Counted from the first letter of the stretch, positions 453-19,512 are shown. The stretch is 21,373 bases of DNA from a virus (IMGVR_UViG_3300032092_002775:1-21373); one strand, 5' to 3'. Numbers and translations are program-made. Notes: generated by a model from the sequence alone, not told the origin.

Positions 453-643
453 ATCCGCCTCCCGCAGTTAAATGACTGTGTCCCGATCCGAAACGACGAG
501 CTGTACTTGCAGTCGTCCAGGATCCGGCCCTCGGTCACCAGCATCCCGGCCATCACTCCAATAACTAATGCAAAAATCGGGGCCATGGCCTTTGCCCAGT
601 GCCGTCTTACCCACTTCTTCAGTGCGGTTATTTCCTCGTGCAT
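449..643 (-). CDS. Small membrane protein (64 aa)
   Basis: The start chosen is ATG at 643, because GGGAG lies six bases upstream and the ATG shares its A with the TGA stop of the previous gene. The protein has a basic amphipathic N-terminus (KKWVRRHWAK), one membrane helix at about residues 22-38 (APIFALVIGVMAGMLV), and a polar C-terminus with two cysteines. This pattern suggests a single-pass membrane protein. The family is not recognised; spanin, holin or host-envelope modifier are all open. Confidence 0.65.
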   Translation of the reverse strand: MHEEITALKKWVRRHWAKAMAPIFALVIGVMAGMLVTEGRILDDCKYSSSFRIGTQSFNCGRRM

Positions 644-852
644 CACAGTCTCCCGTTCATGGTATCGGCCTTGATGCACTCGGTGATCCAGACGACCTGC
701 ATGTTGGTCGCGTTGGCCACCCAGTACCTCATCATGCCCTCCTCGTTGTCGATGCTGACAATCAGCAGCGTGTCGTTATCCTTGCAGGCCTTGGTGGCCT
801 CGTCCAGCGCCGACAGCGCGGTCCACTTTCCTATGCGGTGTATTTCTGCCAT
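643..852 (-). CDS. Hypothetical protein (69 aa)
   Basis: ATG at 852 is preceded by AGGAG at a good distance. The sequence alternates strands and helices (IGKWTALSALDEATKACKDN, then LLIVSIDN and MRYWVAN), and reads as a small soluble alpha/beta domain of the kind common in phage accessory arms. It has a one-base overlap with the next gene (TGATG). No family recognised. Confidence 0.65.
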   Translation of the reverse strand: MAEIHRIGKWTALSALDEATKACKDNDTLLIVSIDNEEGMMRYWVANATNMQVVWITECIKADTMNGRL

Positions 853-860
853 GTTGACTC

Positions 861-1013
861 CTAAAAGGGTGCCGGCCCGAGCTTGTCGAGCTGTTTCTTT
901 TTGTCTTCCTTCTTGGCGCGCTGGTAGTACTTGACGACCAGCTTGCGCTCCTCGGGCGTTTTAAACGGCCAGTCCCAGCGCTCCTGGGTCATGCCTGATG
1001 GGTGCAATTTCAT
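861..1013 (-). CDS. Hypothetical basic protein (50 aa)
   Basis: ATG at 1013 opens a 50-residue frame, MKLHPSGMTQERWDWPF then a lysine/arginine-rich helix (KLVVKYYQRAKKEDKKK) and LGPAPF. AGGAGAG precedes the start and the ATG overlaps the upstream stop as ATGA. The high positive charge suggests nucleic-acid or protein binding, as inference only. It fills the gap between two better-supported genes and keeps the same strand and overlap style. Confidence 0.6.
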   Translation of the reverse strand: MKLHPSGMTQERWDWPFKTPEERKLVVKYYQRAKKEDKKKQLDKLGPAPF

Positions 1014-1252
1014 TTTTCTCTCCTTCGCATCATCGCACGAGCAATCCAGTCGGCGACTTGAGCTATTTTGTCTGTTTCGCTTCCGGGAATGGTTTCGTGG
1101 TTTCTTACTTCTTTCATAGATTCCGGGTTTGCTAATAATCCTTGCAAGGCATGCGCAGCAAAATAGTCGTGTAAGGTTATGCCTTTGTTGATGTAGTTGT
1201 ACTGTTTGTCTGCATCATTAGCGAATGGGAATGCGTATTCAGTGCGTGTCAT
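1010..1252 (-). CDS. Phage hypothetical protein with ITLHDYFAAHAL motif (80 aa)
   Basis: The start is placed at ATG 1252 (MTRTEYAFPF), with GGAG seven bases before it, not at an ATG 33 bases further upstream that lacks a site. The motif GITLHDYFAAHALQGLL followed by a C-terminal helix ADWIARAMMRRREK is a familiar arrangement in small phage and prophage proteins of unknown role. It is predicted soluble and helical. It overlaps the end of the DUF3310 gene. Confidence 0.7.
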   Translation of the reverse strand: MTRTEYAFPFANDADKQYNYINKGITLHDYFAAHALQGLLANPESMKEVRNHETIPGSETDKIAQVADWIARAMMRRREK

Positions 1253-1460
1253 TGTGTTTCTCCAGTTTAGTGATATACCGATCAAGGTACCAGCGCGCCT
1301 TTTTGAGGTCCTCGATCGGGCAGTGTGATTTGATCCCGGCGCGCGAGATGTACTTTACCACGTTGCCAAGGTGGTACCCAAGACGTTTGGACTCGATAAA
1401 ATCAATGGTCTCGATCCCTCCGGACTTGTAATGGGGTGGGTGGTTGATGATGTCGCTCAT
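1239..1460 (-). CDS. DUF3310 family phage protein (73 aa)
   Basis: The protein matches the DUF3310 pattern along nearly its whole length: NHPPHYKSGGIETIDFIE, then LGNVVKYISRAG, then EDLKKARWYLDR. The family is widespread in phages, often annotated loosely as a nucleotide-kinase-like protein, but no kinase motif is visible here and the role is not established. GAGGAG lies five bases before ATG 1460. The gene overlaps both neighbours by a few bases, so it belongs to the same message. Confidence 0.85.
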   Translation of the reverse strand: MSDIINHPPHYKSGGIETIDFIESKRLGYHLGNVVKYISRAGIKSHCPIEDLKKARWYLDRYITKLEKHNDTH

Positions 1461-1633
1461 GCCTGCTCCTCAAAGTCGAACCACTCGTAGATCTGTTCCA
1501 TGACAGCCGATTCGATGTGGTGCCGCACGTCGTGCTCGGAGGGGTTGTCGTTGTGCTTGTGCGCTCGGTTCCAGCCGATCTCGGTGCCGTCCTCGACGCA
1601 CATCAGAAGCACGCTCTCAAACTTTGGTTTCAT
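1457..1633 (-). CDS. Hypothetical protein (58 aa)
   Basis: The start is ATG 1633, which overlaps the TGA of the AcpS-like gene as ATGA and has AAGGAAGG five bases upstream. The protein begins MKPKFESVLLMCVEDGTEIG and has a histidine-rich centre (RAHKHNDNPSEHDVRHH) and an acidic tail ending FDFEEQA. The cluster of histidines could bind metal, which is inference. No family recognised. Confidence 0.65.
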   Translation of the reverse strand: MKPKFESVLLMCVEDGTEIGWNRAHKHNDNPSEHDVRHHIESAVMEQIYEWFDFEEQA

Positions 1634-2016
1634 GTTGCCTTCCTTTCGCATATAACCGTTGCCGTTACGTAGTCGTCGCTGTCGGAGATGGTGACGTGGT
1701 GCACCCACTCCAGCGAGCCCATCTGGATCGTTGCCTTGCCAGACAGTGCCAGGTAGGGCGCGCCGTCGTCGTGGTTGAGTACTTCCACCTGTCGAACATC
1801 GAGCTGTGGGATCCTGGAGGCCTTGACGAATGCCTCCTTTGCCGCGAATCTCCTGGCCAGGTAGTTCACGGCCAGTAGCTTGTCATCCACCATCTCCGCG
1901 TAGACCTGCAGCTCTCGGTGCCCGAGTACCTGGTGCGCCAGGGCCCACCCCATCTTCTTGGACATGTCCGCGATTCTTTTTATCTGCAGTATGTCGGTGC
2001 CAATGCCGTGTATCAA
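1630..2016 (-). CDS. acpS: Holo-[acyl-carrier-protein] synthase homologue
   Basis: AcpS transfers the 4'-phosphopantetheine arm of coenzyme A onto a serine of acyl carrier protein, using a bound magnesium ion. This 128-residue protein has the usual AcpS length and hallmarks: GIGTDILQIKRI near the N-terminus (D8 as metal ligand), RRFAAKEAFVKA (E61 as second ligand, K65), and GAPYL. The closing motif HVTISDS has Asp where the common form has His (as in SxSH), so activity may be altered. The start is a TTG at 2016 with GGGAGGAG upstream; it overlaps the primase stop as TTGA. It is unusual in a phage, and no carrier protein is visible in the window. Confidence 0.88.
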   Translation of the reverse strand: MIHGIGTDILQIKRIADMSKKMGWALAHQVLGHRELQVYAEMVDDKLLAVNYLARRFAAKEAFVKASRIPQLDVRQVEVLNHDDGAPYLALSGKATIQMGSLEWVHHVTISDSDDYVTATVICERKAT

Positions 2017-4319
2017 AATATCTCCTCCCTGAAATCGCCCAGCGTGTTGACGTACTGCTGCGCGCGCTCGGTGAAGCGTACGCCGCGGTACACGTTGCGC
2101 CGCTCGCCGTTGACGCGGCTGACGGTGCTCTCGATCTGCTTGTCCTGCGTCGCGGCCATGAATCGCCGCTTGAACGTCAGGTCGGTCCCGGGGTTGATGC
2201 TCTTGCGGTGTGCCCAGTGCTTGAACACGGCAAACAGCTCGTCCTTGTCGACCTCTCCGGCAGAGTCCAGGATTAGCACGTCCTCGATGAAGATCTTCAG
2301 CGGATTGGACAGCTCCTCCATCACCTCCAACAGCTCGAGACCGCTCTTGGGCTGCAGGAAGTGACCCCCTCGAGATACGCGGCGGTGCTCGCCCTCCATG
2401 GCCCAGTTAAAGATGCCCGAGAGCTCCTTCATCAGCTTGGTCGCGAGATCCGTATCCTCCCTGCCGTAGAACGAGTGAGTCATCTTCAGGACGATCATGC
2501 GGCCCGTGAGCGCGTTCGAGTTTTCTGTCAGCTGCAGCACCTCGTTGGAGTAGACCACGATACGAGTCGGCAGGTATCCGTTCCATGCCTCCTTGTTCTT
2601 GCGGTTTACAGTAACAGTGTCACCGCCAACAATACGCAGCAGCTGAGAAACAACAGCATTGCGATTTCGATCGGGCGCACGCGCGTCCGTAAACGATGCA
2701 AGTAATTTTCCAAGCCACGGTTGTAGTCCGAACGTGTCACAGAGCTCTCCTAGTTCTGGCGCGACGGTGTTGTGCTGTCCAAGCAGCGCCACCAGCACCT
2801 TGTTGATGGTCCCCTTGCCTGATCGGCGGGGTCCGATTAGATTAAAAAACTTCTGCTGGCGCGTGTCTCCGGAGAGTACGTAGCCGAACATCTCCTGCAG
2901 GCACTGTATCGACTCGGTGTCCTTCTCCCACAGCTGCGAGAGAAACGATTCCCAGGTCGGGCAGGTCGCGGCAGGGTCGTACGAAAAGGGCAGGCTGTTC
3001 TGGGTGAAGAATCCTAAAGAGTGTGGTAGTAGCACCGACTCCTCAAGATGAAATAGTCCATTCTCCACCGAGATGAGCTTACCCGCCTCAGGGCGGCCGT
3101 TCTCGTAGCCCGCAAGCCAGACAGGCGGCTTGGTGTTGGGCGCGTTGCGTAGGTGCGTGAGGGCCTTTGTAGCATCCAGCGCCGCCGAAACCGATGCAGG
3201 GTTTGGAGCGAATGGAATAAGATTCCCACGACGGTCCGTCTTCTGGCAGCGATCAAGGAATTGATAGATCGCGGCCCGTATTGTCGCCTCCTCAATCTGC
3301 TCGTAATGTGTCCCGCGGTATACGTACCAATCGTCGGCGTAGTGTACAAGCTTAACCCCTTCTTCGCATGTGTAGAGAGACTCCAGAAACTGACGCGCGT
3401 GTTCCATCGGGGCCTGGCCGAGTACTATCTCGCCGCGCTCCAGGGCCTCCTGCTTTTTTGTCTGGTTGACCTTGAATATCAGCGATCGCAGCGTGGCACC
3501 GCCCTTCTTGGTAAACGTGTCCCACTTCCGGTCGCACAGCCCCGGGCTGTAGGATCCGCACTTCCCGTCGTTGTCCGACCAGCGGTCCCACAGCTCGAGC
3601 GCCTCGACGTCGCCGTTAAACTGGTGGTGCAGGGCCATCCCGACCGTGATCCACTCGGTATAGCTGCACTCCGGGTCGAAGTGTGGCAGCAGCTCCGTCT
3701 CGACTCGTGCCAGGTCGTACTCCTCGACCGGGGCACGGTAATCCGCGAAGTCGTCGCCGGACTGTTTTACCGTCCGCTCCGGTACGATGGTCGACAGGTC
3801 CTGGGCCTCGGTGGGCAGGTCCCCGCGCACCTTGCGCCCGGTGACGGTGAAGTAGCGCCCGCGTGGGTAGATCTCTATACCCTTCTCGTGGTCGACGTGG
3901 GCATAGCCCAGGTCTGCCCGTGTGAATATCTTCACGCCGGTCCCGGACGGGCTGATCTCCATGTAGCCGTCGACGCTGTCCGCTATGGACTCCGAGTCTG
4001 GGTTTGTGAAGTCTCCCGTCTGGGGGTCGATGCAGTCGTCGAGGTCGATACCGACCAGCTTGTCGGAACCGTCGAAGACGAACCCCACCCCGTCGAATCG
4101 GCCGGTCATGTAGGCGCTCTGGGCGGACAGGAAGTCTGTCCAGGTCTGGGGGTCGTTGCTCTTGGCCGCGCGCTTGTCTGCCTGTACAGGCAGCTTCTTC
4201 CACTTCTTGCCGTCGTTGTCGACGACCTCGACGTAGTCCCACAGGACCCACCTCGGCACCATCTTGAGCGCCATCGGTATGTCCTCGAATATCACCGGCA
4301 GGTTGTTAGGTTTACTCAT
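2013..4319 (-). CDS. Primase-polymerase with SF3 helicase (768 aa)
   Basis: This is the only replication enzyme in the window. The N-terminal part is an archaeo-eukaryotic primase-like domain: GIDLDDC at about 91-97 supplies the DxD metal ligands, SPSGTG at 123-128 and YPRGRYFTVTG at about 151-161 complete the active site. A PriCT-like helical segment (about 210-275, SYTEWITVGMALHHQF) follows. The C-terminal half is a D5/superfamily 3 helicase with Walker A GPRRSGKGT at about 496-504, an acidic Walker B region near D545, a sensor Asn in YSNE near 592, and an arginine finger in LTGRM near 607. The arrangement resembles phage NrS-1 polymerase, which can prime and extend DNA. ATG 4319 is preferred because AAGGGA lies upstream; ATG 4343 has no site. 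Confidence 0.92.
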   Translation of the reverse strand: MSKPNNLPVIFEDIPMALKMVPRWVLWDYVEVVDNDGKKWKKLPVQADKRAAKSNDPQTWTDFLSAQSAYMTGRFDGVGFVFDGSDKLVGIDLDDCIDPQTGDFTNPDSESIADSVDGYMEISPSGTGVKIFTRADLGYAHVDHEKGIEIYPRGRYFTVTGRKVRGDLPTEAQDLSTIVPERTVKQSGDDFADYRAPVEEYDLARVETELLPHFDPECSYTEWITVGMALHHQFNGDVEALELWDRWSDNDGKCGSYSPGLCDRKWDTFTKKGGATLRSLIFKVNQTKKQEALERGEIVLGQAPMEHARQFLESLYTCEEGVKLVHYADDWYVYRGTHYEQIEEATIRAAIYQFLDRCQKTDRRGNLIPFAPNPASVSAALDATKALTHLRNAPNTKPPVWLAGYENGRPEAGKLISVENGLFHLEESVLLPHSLGFFTQNSLPFSYDPAATCPTWESFLSQLWEKDTESIQCLQEMFGYVLSGDTRQQKFFNLIGPRRSGKGTINKVLVALLGQHNTVAPELGELCDTFGLQPWLGKLLASFTDARAPDRNRNAVVSQLLRIVGGDTVTVNRKNKEAWNGYLPTRIVVYSNEVLQLTENSNALTGRMIVLKMTHSFYGREDTDLATKLMKELSGIFNWAMEGEHRRVSRGGHFLQPKSGLELLEVMEELSNPLKIFIEDVLILDSAGEVDKDELFAVFKHWAHRKSINPGTDLTFKRRFMAATQDKQIESTVSRVNGERRNVYRGVRFTERAQQYVNTLGDFREEIF

Positions 4320-4373
4320 AGATTTTCCCTTGTGTTGCGTCATTCTAGGTCTGGTCGTTTTGGTGTGTCAATA

Positions 4374-4388
4374 CGGCAAAATTTGCCG
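4374..4388. promoter_or_regulatory. Palindromic operator-like site, copy 1
   Basis: The 15-mer CGGCAAAATTTGCCG has seven-base arms (CGGCAAA / TTTGCCG) around one base. It lies about 55 bases upstream of the primase start, on the side where its promoter or leader would be. A near-identical 15-mer is at 4601-4615, differing at one base. Binding by a repressor is inference. Confidence 0.4.
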
Positions 4389-4442
4389 TTTTTGATTGTC
4401 GGCCACTTACGATCCAAAGTTAAAGTCAATTCTCGAATATTG

Positions 4443-4579
4443 CCGGGGTTGCGGGGGTAGTAGGGGTCTAAACGTAATTATTCGTTTTTAAATTAAAAAT
4501 TAAAAATGAAATTATTCTGGACCGACCTCACATAGACCCCCGCTACCCCTACTACCCCTGACAAATGTCCGGACAAGTT
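4443..4579. repeat. AT-rich imperfect palindrome with G-rich nonamer arms, copy 1
   Basis: Two 28-base arms (4443-4470 and 4533-4560) made of GGGGTAGTA-like nonamers face each other across a 62-base AT-rich centre rich in TTTTTAAAT and AAAAAT. A conserved tail, ACAAATGT then CGGACAAGTT, follows and touches the stop of the next gene. A second copy with the same order is at 12632-12766, in the same orientation. Iteron-like arms beside an AT-rich core fit a replication origin or a strong regulatory hairpin; which one cannot be decided from sequence. It lies directly upstream of the primase gene. Confidence 0.7.
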
Positions 4580-7605: not shown

Positions 7606-7637
7606 GGTCTTGCTCCTTTTTGTGGTTGGTATGTGTT

Positions 7638-7658
7638 TGGTTTTTCGTGGGTACTTTT
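7638..7658 (-). promoter_or_regulatory. Conserved intergenic motif, copy 1
   Basis: Read on the minus strand the motif is AAAAGTACCCACGAAAAACC then A. It ends 33 bases before ATG 7605. The stop of the 23-residue membrane gene lies at its upstream edge. Four other near-identical copies precede genes starting at 8644, 9146, 10305 and 11776. This copy diverges right after ACCA. Promoter or operator use is inference. Confidence 0.6.
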
Positions 7659-8664: not shown

Positions 8665-8940
8665 TCATTCTACTGGTTTTTCGTGGGTACTTTTTTGCTG
8701 CTCGATTCGGGCCTCGGTCACCTTGCGCTGCGCCCAGTGGTAGCCGTGTGAGAGGGCCTCCATGTAGCTGCGGTGGGTGTAGTACCGGACGCTGCCCCGG
8801 CCGTGGGCCCTTGACTGGGCCGTGACCTTGCCGTCGGGCCAGTACGTGATCCGGTAGTGCATGCCCTCCGGGAGGCCGTCTGCCCGGACACTGGCCGACA
8901 TCCCGCCGTCGGGCCTGAATCGCTCAAAGAATTCGATCAT
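8665..8940 (-). CDS. Hypothetical protein (91 aa)
   Basis: The start is ATG 8940, with GGGGAG four bases upstream; it overlaps the previous stop as ATGA. The product begins MIEFFERFRPDGGMSASVRA, has beta-like RITYWPDGKVTAQS and a helix MEALSHGYHWAQRKVTEA. Its last residues (KSTHEKPVE) are encoded by copy 2 of the conserved intergenic motif, so the gene end and the motif are superimposed. Confidence 0.65.
   Translation of the reverse strand: MIEFFERFRPDGGMSASVRADGLPEGMHYRITYWPDGKVTAQSRAHGRGSVRYYTHRSYMEALSHGYHWAQRKVTEARIEQQKSTHEKPVE
8671..8694 (-). promoter_or_regulatory. Conserved intergenic motif, copy 2
   Basis: On the minus strand AAAAGTACCCACGAAAAACC is followed by AGTA. It ends 27 bases before ATG 8644 and overlaps the last codons of the gene upstream. 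That it is kept here despite being read in a coding frame argues for selection on the DNA or RNA sequence. Confidence 0.65.
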
Positions 8941-9146: not shown

Positions 9147-9175
9147 GGTGTCACTCCTGTGTTGTGGTTGGTATC

Positions 9176-9619
9176 TTACTGGTTTTTCGTGGGTACTTTG
9201 TAGATCGCGAAGACGCGCGACCCGGCGCGCGTGCCTGCGGTGTCGATGATCCTGCCATCGACGACGGCAAAGGCGTGGCCCGTGATCAGGACCACGTGCC
9301 GGCCGTCTTGCAGGCCCCGCAGCGCGGTCTCCACGGTCATGCCTTGGCCGGGTGTGGTGTTGGTGAAGCTGCCCGCGAAACGTGCTCGGCCCGTGGACCC
9401 GTAGACCCCGACCAGCCGCAGGCCCGCCTCGATGTAGGCCTTGTGGTAGGTCGAGAACGTGGCGCCCTTGCGGAAGCGGCGCCCGTGTTTGGATAGAAGG
9501 GCGTGCGCCTCGCCGTAGTCCCAGCCGGCTGCGTTGGCCAGCGCGCGGACGGTGCAGTCTCTGGCCTCGTTCATTCTTGACTGGCCCTGAGAGACGGGCC
9601 ATAGCGTTTTGCGTGTCAT
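9176..9619 (-). CDS. Cysteine-peptidase-like protein (147 aa)
   Basis: The start is ATG 9619, with AGGAG upstream and the cleavage site of hammerhead A 28 bases before it. Near the N-terminus EARDCTVRALANAAG places a Cys (C22) at the start of a helix; later TGHAFAVVDG has His 115, followed by IIDT with Asp 126. A Cys-helix then His-strand then Asp order is typical of papain-like folds, so a peptidase or transglutaminase-like domain is plausible. Similar DCTVRALA proteins are common in phages without known function. The C-terminus (KVPTKNQ) is encoded by copy 3 of the conserved motif. Confidence 0.7.
   Translation of the reverse strand: MTRKTLWPVSQGQSRMNEARDCTVRALANAAGWDYGEAHALLSKHGRRFRKGATFSTYHKAYIEAGLRLVGVYGSTGRARFAGSFTNTTPGQGMTVETALRGLQDGRHVVLITGHAFAVVDGRIIDTAGTRAGSRVFAIYKVPTKNQ
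9177..9199 (-). promoter_or_regulatory. Conserved intergenic motif, copy 3
   Basis: On the minus strand AAAGTACCCACGAAAAACCA is followed by GTA and then AGATACCAACCACAA. It supplies the last codons and stop of the cysteine-peptidase-like gene and ends 31 bases before ATG 9146. Its reading frame differs from that at copy 2, so protein constraint cannot explain the shared sequence. Confidence 0.65.
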
Positions 9620-9641: not shown

Positions 9642-9693
9642 GCACTGGACCCCGTCTCCGGGGTTTCGGCCATTGAGGCCTCGTCAGCAGTGC
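9642..9693 (-). ncRNA. Type I hammerhead ribozyme, copy A
   Basis: Read 5'-3' on the minus strand: stem I GCACUG, core CUGACGA, stem II GGCC with loop UCAAU and GGCC, core GAAA, stem III CCCCG with loop GAGA and CGGGG (plus the A-U pair of the core), then UC, and stem I closes with CAGUGC. Cleavage is expected between 9648 and 9647. The element begins on the base after the stop codon of the preceding gene. The 3' product would carry a 28-base leader before ATG 9619. All invariant hammerhead nucleotides are present. Confidence 0.9.
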
Positions 9694-10050
9694 TCAGAAT
9701 GAGAAGTCGTGGTAATGGTCGCGGAATCCAAGGATCAGCCCGCCATACCTGTGCGACTTCCAGCGCCCGGTCTCGGGGTTGCGGATTACACGGACCCAGC
9801 GATTGTCGCGGTCGCGCCGGTAGTGGTTGATCGGCGCGTTGGGGTTGGGCGTGCACTCGTACTGCTGGGCGTCGGACATGCCGTTGGCGTCGGTGCGGCG
9901 GACGTCGTCGTCTTGGACCGAGACGATCTTGCCGTCCCACGCCACGACGGTGCCTGCCTGTCGGTCGGTGTATCCGGTCATGGTGGCGCCCATGCCCACG
10001 ACGGGCTCTGGTGCGTTGATTGTCATCGCCTCGTACATTTCATTGATCAT
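9694..10050 (-). CDS. Hypothetical protein (118 aa)
   Basis: The start is ATG 10050, with AGGAG upstream; the longer frame runs back through the ribozyme and is rejected. The product begins MINEMYEAMTINAPEPVVGM and has a beta-rich centre (GTVVAWDGKIVSVQDDD) suggestive of a small barrel, then a C-terminal part with RWVRVIRNPETGRWKSHRYG, ending HDFSF. A nucleic-acid-binding barrel is possible. It lies between hammerheads B and A, so its message would be cut on both sides. Confidence 0.7.
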   Translation of the reverse strand: MINEMYEAMTINAPEPVVGMGATMTGYTDRQAGTVVAWDGKIVSVQDDDVRRTDANGMSDAQQYECTPNPNAPINHYRRDRDNRWVRVIRNPETGRWKSHRYGGLILGFRDHYHDFSF

Positions 10051-10072
10051 GGTTTTGCTCCTGTGTTGTGTT

Positions 10073-10124
10073 GCACTGGACCCCGTCGCCGGGGTTTCGG
10101 CCACTCAGGCCTCGTCAGCAGTGC
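10073..10124 (-). ncRNA. Type I hammerhead ribozyme, copy B
   Basis: Stem I GCACUG, core CUGACGA, stem II GGCC-UGAGU-GGCC, core GAAA, stem III CCCCG-GCGA-CGGGG, then UC and stem I CAGUGC. Predicted cleavage is between 10079 and 10078, leaving a 28-base leader before ATG 10050. This copy differs from the others in position: the last codons and TGA of the 66-residue gene lie inside it, with the stop codon in the stem II loop. The stem III tetraloop is GNRA type. Confidence 0.9.
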
Positions 10125-10305
10125 TGATCCATTTCAAATTGTAGACGGAGGGAAAATACTCGCCCGCCGTTGTCCACACACGCCCGGTCGATCCGGTGTG
10201 GTGTGGTGGCTGCCCGCCTTTCAGGGTTGCGGATTCACCGCGAAACGATGTCACTGTCGCGCCGGGTTTTACTGGGTTGTTTTGATTGTCTACTAGTGTC
10301 CACAT
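10105..10305 (-). CDS. Small phage protein (66 aa) ending inside a ribozyme
   Basis: ATG 10305 has AGGAG upstream. The product begins MWTLVDNQNNPVKPGATVTS, with FRGE, HHTGSTGRVW and EYFPSVYNLKW: a pattern seen in many small phage proteins that look like beta barrels of unknown role. Its last seven residues (ISTADEA) and stop are encoded by the 5' half of hammerhead B, so ribosomes finishing the gene must unfold the ribozyme. Confidence 0.75.
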   Translation of the reverse strand: MWTLVDNQNNPVKPGATVTSFRGESATLKGGQPPHHTGSTGRVWTTAGEYFPSVYNLKWISTADEA

Positions 10306-10337
10306 GGTTTAGCTCCTGTTGTGTTGTGGTTGGTGTC

Positions 10338-10362
10338 TTACTGGTTTTTCGTGGGTACTTTA
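10338..10362 (-). promoter_or_regulatory. Conserved intergenic motif, copy 4
   Basis: On the minus strand TAAAGTACCCACGAAAAACC is followed by AGTAA. It lies directly downstream of hammerhead C (one base apart) and ends 33 bases before ATG 10305. It is the only place where ribozyme and motif occur together, giving a 64-base leader after cleavage. Confidence 0.65.
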
Positions 10363-10363
10363 T

Positions 10364-10415
10364 GCACTGGACCCCGTCTCCGGGGTTTCGGCCATTGAGG
10401 CCTCGTCAGCAGTGC
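10364..10415 (-). ncRNA. Type I hammerhead ribozyme, copy C
   Basis: Same parts as copy A: GCACUG, CUGACGA, GGCC-UCAAU-GGCC, GAAA, CCCCG-GAGA-CGGGG, UC, CAGUGC. Predicted cleavage is between 10370 and 10369. It starts four bases after the stop of the GP88-like gene. The core is intact. Confidence 0.9.
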
Positions 10416-10419
10416 TGGA

Positions 10420-11166
10420 TTATGCCGCAAGCTTGATCGGGATCACGCGCTGCGCCGTGTCGATCACGAACCCGCTGCCGTCGCGTTTTGCCTTGCCTTT
10501 GGCGTAGAGCGCGACGACGACGCCCTTGGGCTCGAGGTGGCGCACGTCGGAGTCGTCTCCGCCGATGCAGCGCATGCCCTGAAACGTCTCGGGGATCGAC
10601 TCACGCGTGCGGAACACGACCGCGACGCGCATGCCGTTATCAATGGCCCGCTGCGCGTACTGGCGGAATGCCGCGACGCCGGAGTACGAAAACGTCAGAT
10701 CGTAATTTGCCGGAATCTCGCGCCGATTGTTCAGCTTGGTGTAGTCGTAAAACTGCACGTTCGGGAACAGCTCGAACAGCGTACGGCCGCACGCAGCGCG
10801 GACCGTCTCCCACCGGATGTCGGACGTGCCGTTCAGCCGGACCAGCGGGGTCATGCCAAGCTTGGCAGCGCGACGGACCAGTCGCGCGATGTCCTGCACC
10901 AGCAGTGACATAAAACCCGCGCGGTCCTCAAAAAAGAAATGCGTACGGTTTAGGCGCGCTGCCTGCACTGACGACATGGCGCCGCGGCCGGCGGTGAAGA
11001 GGCACGCCGACTTGCACCCGGCCAGCTCGGCCGTCGCGCAGACGTTGTGGCCAGACTGGTCGGCGGGGGCGAGATACAGGATGCCAGTCAGAAAGCCGAG
11101 GGTCTGGCCCTTGACGGTCTTGGCATTCGTGTCGATTGACAGCAGGTTTTTAGGTTTCTTGTGCAT
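10420..11166 (-). CDS. GP88 family protein (248 aa)
   Basis: The N-terminal part has the GP88 pattern: TLGFLTGILYLAPADQSGHN, then C43, C51 and C55 in CATAELAGCKSACL, followed by FTAGRGAMSSVQAARLNRT. The cysteines suggest a metal or iron-sulphur site, as inference. A middle strand-helix repeat (TPLVRLNGTSDIRWE, VQFYDYTKLNNR, MRVAVVFRTRESIP) resembles part of an alpha/beta barrel, compatible with a radical-SAM-like fold, though the family's reaction is not known. Related genes occur in many phages. The start ATG 11166 has CGGAG upstream and lies 27 bases after the cleavage site of hammerhead D. Confidence 0.85.
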   Translation of the reverse strand: MHKKPKNLLSIDTNAKTVKGQTLGFLTGILYLAPADQSGHNVCATAELAGCKSACLFTAGRGAMSSVQAARLNRTHFFFEDRAGFMSLLVQDIARLVRRAAKLGMTPLVRLNGTSDIRWETVRAACGRTLFELFPNVQFYDYTKLNNRREIPANYDLTFSYSGVAAFRQYAQRAIDNGMRVAVVFRTRESIPETFQGMRCIGGDDSDVRHLEPKGVVVALYAKGKAKRDGSGFVIDTAQRVIPIKLAA

Positions 11167-11187
11167 GGTGTTTTGCTCCGTGTTGTT

Positions 11188-11239
11188 GCATCAGACCCGC
11201 TGTCGCGGGTTTCGGCCACTCAGGCCTCGTCAGTGATGC
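11188..11239 (-). ncRNA. Type I hammerhead ribozyme, copy D
   Basis: Stem I GCAUCA, core CUGACGA, stem II GGCC-UGAGU-GGCC, core GAAA, stem III CCCGC-GACA-GCGGG, then UC and stem I UGAUGC. Predicted cleavage is between 11194 and 11193, leaving a 27-base leader before ATG 11166. Compared with copies A-C, three stem I pairs and two stem III pairs have changed on both strands, which keeps the pairing. Confidence 0.92.
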
Positions 11240-11243
11240 TGAA

Positions 11244-11492
11244 TCAGCGCGCGTCCATCTGCTGTTGGCGACGCTGTGTCGAATCCCAACAATCGAGCAC
11301 GCCGAGGTCGTCGCAGACCCACATTGCGAAGATGTCTTCTCGGGTATACCCGGCCGGCATTGGGCGCTGATTGATGCGGGTGACAAGGTGCTCGATGTAG
11401 TCCGCATCGAAGAGGTCGAATGCGTCTTTGATGTCGTGCTCTTCTGCTACCTGCTTGACGATGGCCGTGGCCTGCTTGGTGGTGATGTGCAT
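11244..11492 (-). CDS. Hypothetical protein (82 aa)
   Basis: ATG 11492 has CGGAG upstream and lies 27 bases after the cleavage site of hammerhead E. The product begins MHITTKQATAIVKQVAEEHD, is mostly helical, with a FDLFDADYIEHLVTRINQRP segment and a DDLGVLDCWDSTQRR end. It may be a small helical binding domain. No family recognised. Confidence 0.7.
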   Translation of the reverse strand: MHITTKQATAIVKQVAEEHDIKDAFDLFDADYIEHLVTRINQRPMPAGYTREDIFAMWVCDDLGVLDCWDSTQRRQQQMDAR

Positions 11493-11513
11493 GGTGTCAT
11501 TCTCCGTGTTGTT

Positions 11514-11565
11514 GCATCAGACCCGCTGTCGCGGGTTTCGGCCAATCAGGCCTCGTCAGTGATGC
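11514..11565 (-). ncRNA. Type I hammerhead ribozyme, copy E
   Basis: Identical to copy D except that the stem II loop is UGAUU: GCAUCA, CUGACGA, GGCC-loop-GGCC, GAAA, CCCGC-GACA-GCGGG, UC, UGAUGC. Predicted cleavage is between 11520 and 11519, leaving a 27-base leader before ATG 11492. The element begins four bases after the upstream stop. Confidence 0.92.
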
Positions 11566-11776: not shown

Positions 11777-11809
11777 GGTGTGGATCTCCTGTGGTTAATG
11801 TGTCCACTG

Positions 11810-11834
11810 TACTGGTTTTTCGTGGGTACTTTTA
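11810..11834 (-). promoter_or_regulatory. Conserved intergenic motif, copy 5
   Basis: On the minus strand TAAAAGTACCCACGAAAAAC is followed by CAGTA. This copy precedes the first gene of the minus-strand arm, where no upstream gene is close, which supports a promoter or operator role over an mRNA-internal one. Confidence 0.65.
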
Positions 11835-12080: not shown

Positions 12081-12096
12081 TGGCACGATTCTTGCA
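12081..12096 (+). promoter_or_regulatory. Sigma-54-like promoter 2
   Basis: CTGGCACGATTCTTGCA matches the sigma-54 consensus at every defined position. It lies 41 bases after the first and would start near 12107, inside the first palindrome of the array. No activator gene of the sigma-54 type is visible in the window, so a host activator would be needed. Confidence 0.65.
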
Positions 12097-12100
12097 TAGT

Positions 12101-12354
12101 AGTGAGCGCACACTAACTTATGTTGCGGTGCAATATGATAGTGAGCGCACACTGACCAAGCTGTTGCGCCGCAGCATGTTAGTGTGCGCACACTGGGGCG
12201 CTGGCAACGTGTTAGTGAGTACTCACTGGGGCTGGTGCAGTGCGGCATATTGTTGCGCCGCAACATGTTAGTGAGCGCTCACTGGGGCGTTGTGCACTGC
12301 AGCAAAATGGTGCGGTGCAACATAGGCAACCCGGCGCTTTGTTGCGACGCAGCA
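12101..12354. repeat. Interleaved array of two palindrome families
   Basis: Family 1 is AGTGAGCGCTCACT-like, at 12101, 12140, 12181, 12214 and 12270 (14 bases each; the last three are perfect palindromes). Family 2 is TGTTGCGCCGCAACA-like, at 12121, 12162, 12251, 12308 and 12340, with weaker forms near 12200, 12232 and 12290. In the first part members alternate about every 20 bases, close to two helical turns, which would place bound proteins on one face of the DNA. Operators, an enhancer for the sigma-54-like promoters, or a partition-type site are possible. Confidence 0.75.
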
Positions 12355-12631: not shown

Positions 12632-12766
12632 CAGGGGTAGTAGGGGTAGTAGGGGTCTAAACGACTTTTTTTATTTTTAAATGAAAAATGAAAAATAAAA
12701 TATCTACACCGACCTGGATTAGACCCCCGCTACCCCCGCTACCCCTGACAAATGTACGGACAAGTT
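12632..12766. repeat. AT-rich imperfect palindrome with G-rich nonamer arms, copy 2
   Basis: The arms at 12632-12659 and 12720-12747 consist of three GGGGTAGTA-type nonamers on one side and their CG-substituted complement on the other (24 of 28 pairs). The centre is AT-rich, with TTTTTAAAT and repeated AAAAAT as in copy 1, and the same ACAAATGT / CGGACAAGTT tail follows. It lies about 95 bases before the first head-module gene. Confidence 0.7.
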
Positions 12767-16759: not shown

Positions 16760-19512
16760 TGCCACAAATCCCCAAGATGCCAATCCAGCAGGGTGCAAAC
16801 CTTGCATCGCTCGACCTGGAGTCCTCGGAGAACTACGAGGAGGCCATGATGCAGGAGGCCGAGATCGAGCACTACGAGGACGTGCTTGGGCTAGAGCCAG
16901 GACAGGCAGAAGAAGAGGTCATCGAGTTAGATGATGGCTCCGTGGTCATCAACTACCGGCCCACCGAGGGACCGCTAAAGAACCCAGAGTTTTATGCAAA
17001 CCTGGCCGAGCTACTAGACGAGAGCGTTCTGTCTTCGCTCTCTACCGAGTACAACGAGTACATCCAGGTAGACAAAGAGGCACGCAAGGAGAGAGATAAG
17101 CAGTATGAAGAAGGACTACGAAGGACAGGACTTGGAAAGGACGCGCCAGGTGGCGCAACTTTTGACGGAGCTTCCAAGGTTGTGCACCCTGTCATGGCAG
17201 AGGCTTGCGTTGACTTCGCGGCGTCTAGCTCGCGCGAGCTTCTCCCGCCTGACGGAATCGTTAAGTCGGAGATAAAGGGCGAGGCGGACCGCCAGCGCGT
17301 AGACGTTGCCGAGCGCAAGTCTCAGTTCCTAAACTGGCAGCTCACGGAGCAGATTGAAGAGTACCGCGACGAGATGGAGCAGGCGCTGACCCAGCTGCCG
17401 CTTGGCGGATCGCAGTACTTCAAATGGCGATGGGATGGAGAGCAAAAGAGACCCACCTGCGAGTGGATCCCGATTGATAACATCTTCCTGCCGTACGCCA
17501 CGACAAACTTCTACACATCGCCCCGCGTAACCGAGGTGCAGGACATTACGGAGGACACGTTCCTACAGCGCGTTGATGCCGGCATCTACCGCAACATCGG
17601 CGACCTGGTCGTGTCGGAGCTGCCGCAGGACAACATGACGCGCTCGCAAAAGGCCAACGACAAGATCGAGGGCAAGGAGGCGCCGACAAAAAACATCGAC
17701 GGCGTACGCCGCGTGTACGAGATTACGTGCTTCTTGAGGCTAGAGGACGACCCTGAGACCAACGGCGCACGAGCGCCGTACATCCTCACGATTGACGAGG
17801 ACACCGACAAGGTCCTCTCGCTGTACAGAAACTGGGAGGCGGGAGATGAGAAGCTTACAAAACTGGACTGGATCGTCGAGTTTAAGTTTATTCCTTGGCG
17901 CGGTGCTTACGCCATTGGCCTGCCTCACCTTATTGGCGGTCTTAGTGCCGCTCTCACTGGCGCTTTGCGTGCCCTACTGGATTCGGCGCACATTAACAAC
18001 AGCCAGACGATGCTTAAACTCAAGGGCGGAAGAATCTCCGGCCAGAGCGACAGAATTGAGCCTACCCAGGTTCTAGAAATCGAAGGTGCCCCTGGTGTGG
18101 ACGACGTCCGCAAGTTGGCTATGCCGTTGCCGTTTAACCAACCCTCAAGCGTTCTTTACAACCTTCTTGGGTGGTTGACCGACGCCGCGAAAGGGGTCGT
18201 TACGACCGCCGAAGAGAAAATTGGCGACGCAAACGCTAACACGCCAGTGGGCACCACCCAGGCACTGATCGAGCAGGGCGCGAAGGTATTCTCAAGCATC
18301 CACGCACGCCTGCATCGGTCTCAGGCCAAGTCGTTAAAGATCCTATCGCGTATCAATCACTGGTACCTGGAGGAGATGGACAACGAGTCCGGCTCCGAGA
18401 TCGAGGTCCGCGACTTTGCATCCAACAACGACGTCCGGCCAGTGTCGGACCCGAACATTTTCTCTGAGACGCAGCGGCTTGCACAGGCACAGGCAGTTCT
18501 GCAGATGGCAAACGCGGCGCCTCAGTTGTACGACCTTCGGGCTGCCCACCGGAGGGTTCTGAAGCAGCTGAAAGTTCCTGCAATTAGTGAGATATTGCCA
18601 GATCCGGATGGAATCAAGGAAGCAAACCCTGCCCTGGAGAACGTTGCAATGTCCATGGGCCGCCCCGCGGCGGCTTATCCGGATCAGGACCACTTGGCGC
18701 ACATCAAGGTTCACTTGGCGTATGCCCAGGACCCCAACTACGGTGGCAGCCCACTCATTGGCCCGACCTTCGCGCCGCACGCGCTGGAGCACATCAAGCA
18801 GCACCTGACGCTGCACTACCTGCAGTCGATGCGTGCATACGTCGCCGAAGCATCCGGCGGAAGCGATACTCTTGGACTGCACGAGGAGAAGCCGCTCTCG
18901 CTCGAGGACCAGAAGGCACTGGCGCTTGCCGCGGAGATGGTATCCATGGACGCACAGACCACGTTCCAGACCGCACAGCCCATGATCCAGCAGCTTGCCC
19001 AGAAGGTTCAACAGGCACAGAAGGCCAAGATGGAGCAGATGGCATCTAACGACCCAACGGCTCAGGCACTTCTCAAGACGCAGATGGCCGAGACGCAACG
19101 CAAGGCACAGGAGGCACAGGCCAAGCTTCAGCAGGAGATGTCCAAGCACCAGCAGGACTACCAGCTCAAGGTGGCCGAGCTGGAGCAGAAGGTCCAGGAG
19201 CTCATCGCCAAGTACCAGACCCAGAGCCAGGTCGACAGCCAGAAAAACTCGACCAACATCGCGCTTGCAAACATCAACAACGCCTCGCGCGAGCGCGTGG
19301 CCGCGATGCAGGCCGGGTCCCAGATGGACGGCCTGCAGGCCCAGCTGGCTCACGAGCAGGCCATGTCGGCAATCGACGCGATCAACACCGCCGATACCGA
19401 CATCCGCCAGCACGGGATTGCAATCGAGCAGGCAGCGTTTCAGAAACAGGCAGAGGCCGTACAGGCCGCAATAGACCAGCAGCAACAACAACCACCACAA
19501 GGAGTAGTGTAA
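16759..19512 (+). CDS. Portal protein, P22-like (917 aa)
   Basis: The portal forms the dodecameric ring at the head vertex through which DNA passes. The region from about residue 80 has portal features: KDAPGGATFDGASKVVHPVM, FAASSSRELLPPDG, then LTQLPLGGSQYFKWRW and WIPIDNIFLPYA. The C-terminal 170 residues or so are a Gln/Lys/Ala-rich coiled coil (AQAKLQQEMSKHQQDYQLKV) ending in a glutamine-rich tail, consistent with the long crown helix of P22-type portals. It overlaps the upstream stop by one base (TAATG). At 917 residues it is longer than the P22 protein. Family assignment is by pattern. Confidence 0.88.
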   Translation: MPQIPKMPIQQGANLASLDLESSENYEEAMMQEAEIEHYEDVLGLEPGQAEEEVIELDDGSVVINYRPTEGPLKNPEFYANLAELLDESVLSSLSTEYNEYIQVDKEARKERDKQYEEGLRRTGLGKDAPGGATFDGASKVVHPVMAEACVDFAASSSRELLPPDGIVKSEIKGEADRQRVDVAERKSQFLNWQLTEQIEEYRDEMEQALTQLPLGGSQYFKWRWDGEQKRPTCEWIPIDNIFLPYATTNFYTSPRVTEVQDITEDTFLQRVDAGIYRNIGDLVVSELPQDNMTRSQKANDKIEGKEAPTKNIDGVRRVYEITCFLRLEDDPETNGARAPYILTIDEDTDKVLSLYRNWEAGDEKLTKLDWIVEFKFIPWRGAYAIGLPHLIGGLSAALTGALRALLDSAHINNSQTMLKLKGGRISGQSDRIEPTQVLEIEGAPGVDDVRKLAMPLPFNQPSSVLYNLLGWLTDAAKGVVTTAEEKIGDANANTPVGTTQALIEQGAKVFSSIHARLHRSQAKSLKILSRINHWYLEEMDNESGSEIEVRDFASNNDVRPVSDPNIFSETQRLAQAQAVLQMANAAPQLYDLRAAHRRVLKQLKVPAISEILPDPDGIKEANPALENVAMSMGRPAAAYPDQDHLAHIKVHLAYAQDPNYGGSPLIGPTFAPHALEHIKQHLTLHYLQSMRAYVAEASGGSDTLGLHEEKPLSLEDQKALALAAEMVSMDAQTTFQTAQPMIQQLAQKVQQAQKAKMEQMASNDPTAQALLKTQMAETQRKAQEAQAKLQQEMSKHQQDYQLKVAELEQKVQELIAKYQTQSQVDSQKNSTNIALANINNASRERVAAMQAGSQMDGLQAQLAHEQAMSAIDAINTADTDIRQHGIAIEQAAFQKQAEAVQAAIDQQQQQPPQGVV

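Follow-up and report, generated by a model that had tools for sequence, protein, structure and literature searches.

We analyzed a stretch of DNA of 21,373 nucleotides (nt) from an uncultured phage, IMGVR_UViG_3300032092_002775:1-21373, hereafter called the window. Its minus strand carries an array of six consecutive genes with five junctions within 1.9 kb, and each junction harbors one element of 52 nt, numbered 1 to 5 by increasing coordinate (Table 1). A first-pass annotation, made from the sequence alone, had described these elements as five type I hammerhead ribozymes lying between small phage genes. The coordinates it gave are right, and so is the count of one element per junction at five consecutive junctions. 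However, the elements are not all intergenic, since the one at 10073-10124 is overlapped by gene 4. Five elements in 1.9 kb is a dense arrangement, but not a unique one, since other viral loci have five to seven.

All invariant core bases are present and in the right order in the five elements, both by direct reading and with a structural descriptor. The scan of the minus strand between 9.6 and 11.6 kb with the type I descriptor returned exactly five matches. Each consists of a stem I of 6 bp, CUGACGA, a stem II of 4 bp with a loop of 5 nt, GAAA, a stem III of 5 bp with a loop of 4 nt, UC, and the second strand of stem I. All five thus have the ordered core CUGANGA...GAAA...UH and the open stem I of type I hammerheads. 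Hammerheads 1 (9642) and 3 (10364) are identical across their 52 bases. There are two versions of stem I among the five, GCACUG/CAGUGC and GCAUCA/UGAUGC, in which both strands are altered together, and two versions of stem III, also altered on both sides. The copies at 11188 and 11514 have the GCAUCA/UGAUGC stem I and a stem III differing from that of the other three. Each isolated 52-mer is predicted to fold into the hammerhead secondary structure. No type I hammerhead appeared when the window was dinucleotide-shuffled 60 times (1.28 Mb), which excludes a chance origin. The identification of the five elements as type I hammerhead ribozymes is therefore strongly supported. The product ends proposed in the first-pass annotation (11519, 11193, 10369, 10078, and 9647) match the scissile bonds that we predicted from the sequence.

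The Rfam hammerhead models had been suggested as a check, and at the gathering score they give no match in the window. They also reported no hammerhead at gathering thresholds in six other contigs carrying such elements. Below threshold, the five elements score 18-23 bits to RAGATH-1-hammerhead or HH9 (best 22.9, to RAGATH-1-hammerhead), far below the gathering scores of 56.3 for RF03152 (RAGATH-1-hammerhead) and 52 for RF02275 (Hammerhead_HH9). In these alignments the core and the type I topology agree, whereas stem I and the periphery are unlike those of the window elements. We built a covariance model, R1, from 37 phage hammerhead sequences, none of them from the window or its relatives. 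R1 finds exactly the five elements in the window, with 70-74 bits and E-values of 1e-17 to 1e-19, which are rough because the calibration was shortened. Given these scores, the Rfam miss reflects a gap in the Rfam models. It is a false negative: the subclass is absent from Rfam, not the structure from the elements. As an entire subclass, common in viral contigs, escapes Rfam, phage hammerheads are under-annotated.

Statistics on the flanks revealed the traits of this subclass beyond the core: an A before stem I, a G-C sixth pair, a loop II of sequence UNANU, and an A after stem I. We searched for it with a pattern that fixes the core, the ends of stem II, loop II, and a 5' AG, and does not require pairing in stems I and III. 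The pattern matched at least 119 stretches of viral contigs. Among 84,980 genomes of bacterial and archaeal species it matched only 4 stretches, each in a metagenome-assembled genome. Plasmids gave no match. Among 152 non-redundant sites, 149 possess both stems I and III. All of these 149 have a stem I of exactly 6 bp, G-C as its sixth pair, and an A as 3' flank, none of which is demanded in full by the pattern. Across 53 distinct hammerheads, all 848 pair cells are standard, against about 30% paired in slid controls; 11 of the 16 pairs are altered on both sides, and the three helices all covary. The subclass is sharply defined, mostly viral, and nearly absent from cellular genomes. Contacts between stem I and loop II speed hammerhead cleavage at physiological Mg2+ (PMC3088659), and the fixed 6-bp spacing, the constant A-A, and the UNANU loop would most simply correspond to such a contact. 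A somewhat different set was found in one phage contig (L033, record G013, 566-4545, minus strand), where seven matches to the core and stem II pattern in 4 kb differ in loop II and have a stem I that is shorter.

Among 126 type I hammerheads of viral contigs, 64% have their predicted cut 15-45 nt upstream of a start codon preceded by a Shine-Dalgarno (SD) sequence, against 9% of random places on the same strand, and the commonest distance from cut to start is 25-29 nt. In the window, the leaders from predicted cut to ATG measure 27, 27, 64, 28, and 28 nt from hammerhead 5 to hammerhead 1, the value of 64 being due to a promoter-like repeat that follows hammerhead 3 (see below). An open reading frame (ORF) of at least 40 codons ends at most 30 nt before the core in 65% of cases against 17% in the background, a statistic that takes account of the UGA present in every core. 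Of 130 hammerheads, 32 have the end of the upstream frame in the core UGA and 10 have it in loop II. Type I and type III elements have a median distance of 20-23 nt from element end to start (20 for type III). In type III topology the ribozyme remains attached to the RNA downstream of the cut; common to both types is a cut ahead of the ribosome-binding site. Type III hammerheads immediately upstream of an SD and a start codon are common in viral contigs (e.g., L019, L052, L058, L115, and L124).

Table 1. Features of the hammerhead array and its surroundings in the window (aa, amino acids; R1, covariance model described in the text).
Feature	Position	Strand	Basis or remark
Promoter-like element, AAAGTACCCACGAAAAACCAG + TACAGT, upstream of gene 1	11806..11833	minus	repeat consensus
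Gene 1, 68 aa	11570..11776	minus	ORF list; weak phrog_29605 match
Hammerhead 5, type I, stem I GCATCA/TGATGC	11514..11565	minus	R1 74.1 bits, E 8.7e-19
Hammerhead 5, predicted cut after C17	11519..11520	minus	ATG 27 nt on
Gene 2, 82 aa	11244..11492	minus	90% identical in L093/L331
Hammerhead 4, type I, stem I GCATCA/TGATGC	11188..11239	minus	R1 73.6 bits
Hammerhead 4, predicted cut	11193..11194	minus	ATG 27 nt on
Gene 3, 248 aa, GP88 family (PF17338, phrog_1617)	10420..11166	minus	
Hammerhead 3, type I, stem I GCACTG/CAGTGC	10364..10415	minus	R1 71.8 bits
Hammerhead 3, predicted cut	10369..10370	minus	ATG 64 nt on
Promoter-like element, directly downstream of hammerhead 3	10335..10362	minus	repeat consensus
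Gene 4, 66 aa	10105..10305	minus	final codons (..STADEA, stop) fall within hammerhead 2, the stop itself being in loop II
Hammerhead 2, type I, stem I GCACTG/CAGTGC	10073..10124	minus	R1 70.0 bits
Hammerhead 2, predicted cut	10078..10079	minus	ATG 28 nt on
Gene 5, 118 aa	9694..10050	minus	
Hammerhead 1, type I, stem I GCACTG/CAGTGC	9642..9693	minus	abuts gene 5 TGA; R1 71.8 bits
Hammerhead 1, predicted cut	9647..9648	minus	ATG 28 nt on
Gene 6, 147 aa, phrog_3754	9176..9619	minus	
Promoter-like element, overlaps gene 6 end	9173..9200	minus	repeat consensus
Promoter-like element	8667..8694	minus	repeat consensus
Promoter-like element, 3' part degenerate	7631..7658	minus	

The overlap between gene 4 and hammerhead 2 is found in the window and in the related contigs L093 and L205. 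The frame of gene 4 runs through stem I and the core, and its terminal residues switch between STADEA and SITDEA with the version of stem I, as expected if RNA pairing rules there. Two annotated ORFs of cultured Pelagibacter phages likewise end within a hammerhead: Jormungand gp49 (L334, MT375528, 38083-38265) and HTVC201P gp08 (L338, MH598802, 2126-2308). The sequence UCAGCACUGCUGA, which surrounds stem I of hammerhead 2 at 10096-10128 of the window (minus strand), can pair with the core as a competing hairpin.

We also considered an association between hammerheads and the GP88 protein, and rejected it because 78 of 80 loci of GP88-protein relatives lack a nearby hammerhead. Outside the array, the region at 12094-12292, between two divergent gene blocks, contains a cluster of repeats with GTGAGCGCTCAC-like palindromes and is a possible operator or replication origin. 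Two near-duplicates of about 130 nt (4445-4579 and 12634-12766), 82-86% alike and 8.2 kb apart, have an AT-rich center and flanks GGGGTAGTAGGGGT/ACCCCTACTACCCC.

A second repeated element is interspersed with the hammerheads. A 22-nt repeat, AAAGTACCCACGAAAAACCAGTA, occurs at five places in the window, on the same strand as the hammerheads. The 29 non-redundant copies in related contigs follow AA-R-YACCC-WNR-AAAAACCAG and then TANRRT, which resembles a -10 box; in the window, the element, with YACCCWNRAAAAACCAG followed by TANRRT, lies 26-33 nt upstream of a start codon. Because the frame in which it overlaps gene ends varies, the repeat is not coding, and we read it as a probable phage promoter. 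Among 17 contigs tested, of which 14 had been found via the repeat, 11 also have hammerheads; the repeat occurs as well in phage contigs without hammerheads (L310 and L318). The junction upstream of the GP88 gene carries a hammerhead in the window, L331, L332, and L320, and a promoter-like element in L205 and L321. A search for a T7-like single-subunit RNA polymerase (PF00940) that might use the promoter-like element gave no match in 8 records of related contigs, but the control search was equally without match.

Relatives differ from the window at these junctions. Contig L321 is 93-95% identical to the window across several kb, and it lacks the block formed by the promoter-like element, gene 4, hammerhead 2, and gene 5, between hammerheads 3 and 1. 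Its single junction is a hybrid hammerhead that combines the left side of hammerhead 3 with the right side of hammerhead 1, which places the crossover within the ribozyme. Stem III of this hybrid is unlike that of either hammerhead, by paired changes on both arms. L321 also lacks gene 1, hammerhead 5, gene 2, and hammerhead 4, and here the joint falls at the shared CACCATG leader. In L093/L331, only a hammerhead separates the GP88 gene from gene 6 behind it, and gene 4 is found elsewhere. The only DNA match between the window and cultured phages was a weak one of 108 bp within the GP88 gene, to Caulobacter phage Sansa. Caulobacter phage RW and MW202545 are the nearest relatives by terminase and portal, and their first 50 kb contain neither hammerhead nor promoter-like element.

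The subclass itself is present in cultured phages. Pelagibacter phages Jormungand, HTVC019P, HTVC022P, HTVC201P, and HTVC304P carry single copies ahead of regulator or integrase genes, and further phages match by BLAST. The Flavobacterium elemo phages have the hammerhead 28 nt upstream of gp69, and 68 records contain a match to it. Its stem II is GACU/AGUC in one isolate and GGUU/AACC in another. In elemoA (L337, NC_055852), the type I hammerhead is at 17289-17348 on the minus strand; the plus-strand coding sequence gp68 annotated over it is probably spurious, and a core near 19112 (minus strand) is a probable type III hammerhead just before gp62.

We consider it likely that the elements are functional ribozymes that separate the accessory-gene transcript into single-gene mRNAs with standard leaders, and that they form modules allowing gene exchange. 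This is based on the R1 matches, the covariation, the 149 of 152 intact sites, and the placement at gene junctions, together with the exchange of hammerhead and promoter-like element before the GP88 gene, the hybrid joint of L321, the paired change of stem II in elemo phages, and the cleavage reported for comparable arrays, both in vitro and in E. coli (PMC3088659). During transcription of the minus-strand accessory cluster, each ribozyme would fold just behind the stop codon and cut after C17. The upstream mRNA would carry the stable hairpins of stems II and III at its 3' end, together with a 2',3'-cyclic phosphate, and the one downstream would begin at a 5'-OH, followed by a short open leader that contains an SD; in four of the five cases this leader would measure 27-28 nt. 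We infer that the five elements cleave in this way in vivo, giving single-gene mRNAs that each have a standard leader independent of the upstream neighbor. Ends with a 5'-OH resist RNase E/RppH-type decay, and the mRNAs may gain in stability or translation. The promoter-like element would perform the equivalent job at other junctions of this phage group. As ribozyme and leader form a repeated module, homologous recombination could gain or lose genes and leave the expression of their neighbors undisturbed. The first-pass annotation had proposed that one transcript is cut into single-gene messages with new 5'-OH ends. Such cutting remains the best reading, in line with the placement of the predicted cuts, but a single transcript oversimplifies matters, as the array contains a promoter-like element (10335-10362). 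It is possible, and we suggest this more tentatively, that in this phage group ribozymes and a phage promoter are interchangeable, either one providing an accessory gene with a separate mRNA 5' end some 28 nt ahead of its start codon. Single genes would then be swapped through the standard joint of ribozyme and leader, and the cluster would be a cassette array of self-insulating transcription units.

Several observations weigh against transcript processing as the general role. By the simple rule used above, 36% of the 126 hammerheads have no start at 15-45 nt, and in pelagiphages about 380 nt or more separate the single hammerhead from the annotated gene that comes next, so the start-codon geometry is not universal. 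When about 120 nt around hammerhead 2 are folded, the predicted minimum has a competing hairpin at stem I. In elemoF 6-3D, stem II is GACU/AACC, which amounts to two mismatches. Finally, the genes of the array do not need a hammerhead, since the GP88-protein loci almost always have none close by.

The precise hammerhead-to-hammerhead deletion that separates L321 from the window, with its crossover in the element, would also be expected if the modules acted mainly as DNA, i.e., as repeated joints of 50-80 bp for recombinational gene exchange, with RNA cleavage being secondary. The gene order altered at hammerheads in L093/L331 and the two identical copies in the window fit this as well. We nevertheless find it unlikely. 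A recombination joint would favor sequence identity, whereas the copies differ in stems II and III and in loop II yet preserve all core bases and pairs, a sign of selection on the RNA. Besides, elemo phages and pelagiphages keep a single hammerhead without partner copy. Alternatively, cleavage could be regulated, with terminating ribosomes, a ligand, or a protein deciding on cutting, so that the elements tune neighboring genes. This would give a meaning to the upstream frames that end in the core UGA or in loop II (about a third), to the overlap of gene 4 with hammerhead 2 in three relatives, and to the competing hairpin predicted there. Yet, the overlap is partly due to the UGA triplets inherent in any core, there is no conserved aptamer or extra domain, and the core and the UNANU/A-A periphery look made for fast constitutive cleavage, which makes regulation quite improbable.

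Retrozymes and viroid-like RNAs have type I hammerheads in eukaryotic repeats, which process circular or tandem-repeat RNAs and have their chemistry in common with the window array (reviewed in PMC6155905). Consecutive hammerheads could similarly excise RNAs that are then circularized: neighbors often share stem I (pairs 5/4, 3/2, and 2/1 in the window), so the ends of an excised RNA could pair. However, neighbor matching in 29 arrays is no better than in shuffled order (35 of 72 compatible neighbors vs 34.0, p 0.43), several arrays have non-matching stems I, and Perreault et al. sought circular products and found none (PMC3088659). We therefore regard circularization as very unlikely. We also give very little credence to selfish or neutral repeats spreading in phage genomes without benefit. 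Copies do spread or homogenize, since stem I is identical in 30% of comparisons within a contig and 2% between contigs, but 149 of the 152 sites are intact and mostly at gene junctions, the covariation extends across diverse viral contigs, and no associated mobility gene or target-site duplication was seen. Intrinsic terminators or attenuators with a GC-rich stem III are less likely still, despite the GC-rich hairpins behind stop codons, as no U-run follows the hairpin and an invariant core with a 6-bp stem I would be meaningless in a terminator.

The proposed processing of the transcript by these ribozymes gives a clean prediction, namely single-gene mRNAs with 5'-OH leaders of 27-28 nt, and the comparison of the window with L321 amounts to a natural deletion experiment. 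Function can be tested in cultured carriers, i.e., in the Flavobacterium elemo phages, which have the same geometry, and in pelagiphage HTVC022P, for which RNA-seq data are public (PRJNA1253180, PMC12753301).

A 2017 review (PMC6155905) described the role of hammerheads in prokaryotes and phages as not yet settled. Theta ribozymes of gut phages are also phage self-cleaving RNAs for RNA processing, but they have a fold like that of the hepatitis delta virus (HDV) ribozyme and are tied to tRNA-based recoding instead of gene junctions (PMC10879173). The HHphage hammerhead variant of haloviruses HF1/HF2 lies 13 nt before a start codon, and the mapped transcript 5' end is at most 3 nt from the cut; it is a variant of a haloarchaeal virus, described for a single gene and not for an array (PMC3088659). 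A close precedent is the work of Perreault et al. in 2011, who described clustered hammerheads around single genes in prophages, in A. tumefaciens (triple, around ardA), A. caulinodans, and C. scindens, proposed processing to single-gene mRNAs, and reported three arrays that cut in vitro and one in E. coli (PMC3088659). The earlier assertion that such a system is not a standard phage strategy falls with these reports of clusters, processing proposal, and cleavage. As in those clusters, several hammerheads of the same orientation flank single phage genes in the window array, with five in five junctions. The array differs in its five consecutive junctions, its single fixed compact subclass, and the ATG at 27-28 nt in four of five cases, and its phage group alternates hammerheads with a promoter-like element and shows a recombination footprint. 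The reported cases are mostly from prophages, whereas the window subclass is nearly absent from cellular genomes. Some members of the subclass may already be in Dataset S1 of Perreault et al. What is new here is the subclass itself, its fixed geometry, the exchange between promoter-like element and ribozyme, the recombination footprint and cassette behavior, and the cultured carriers.

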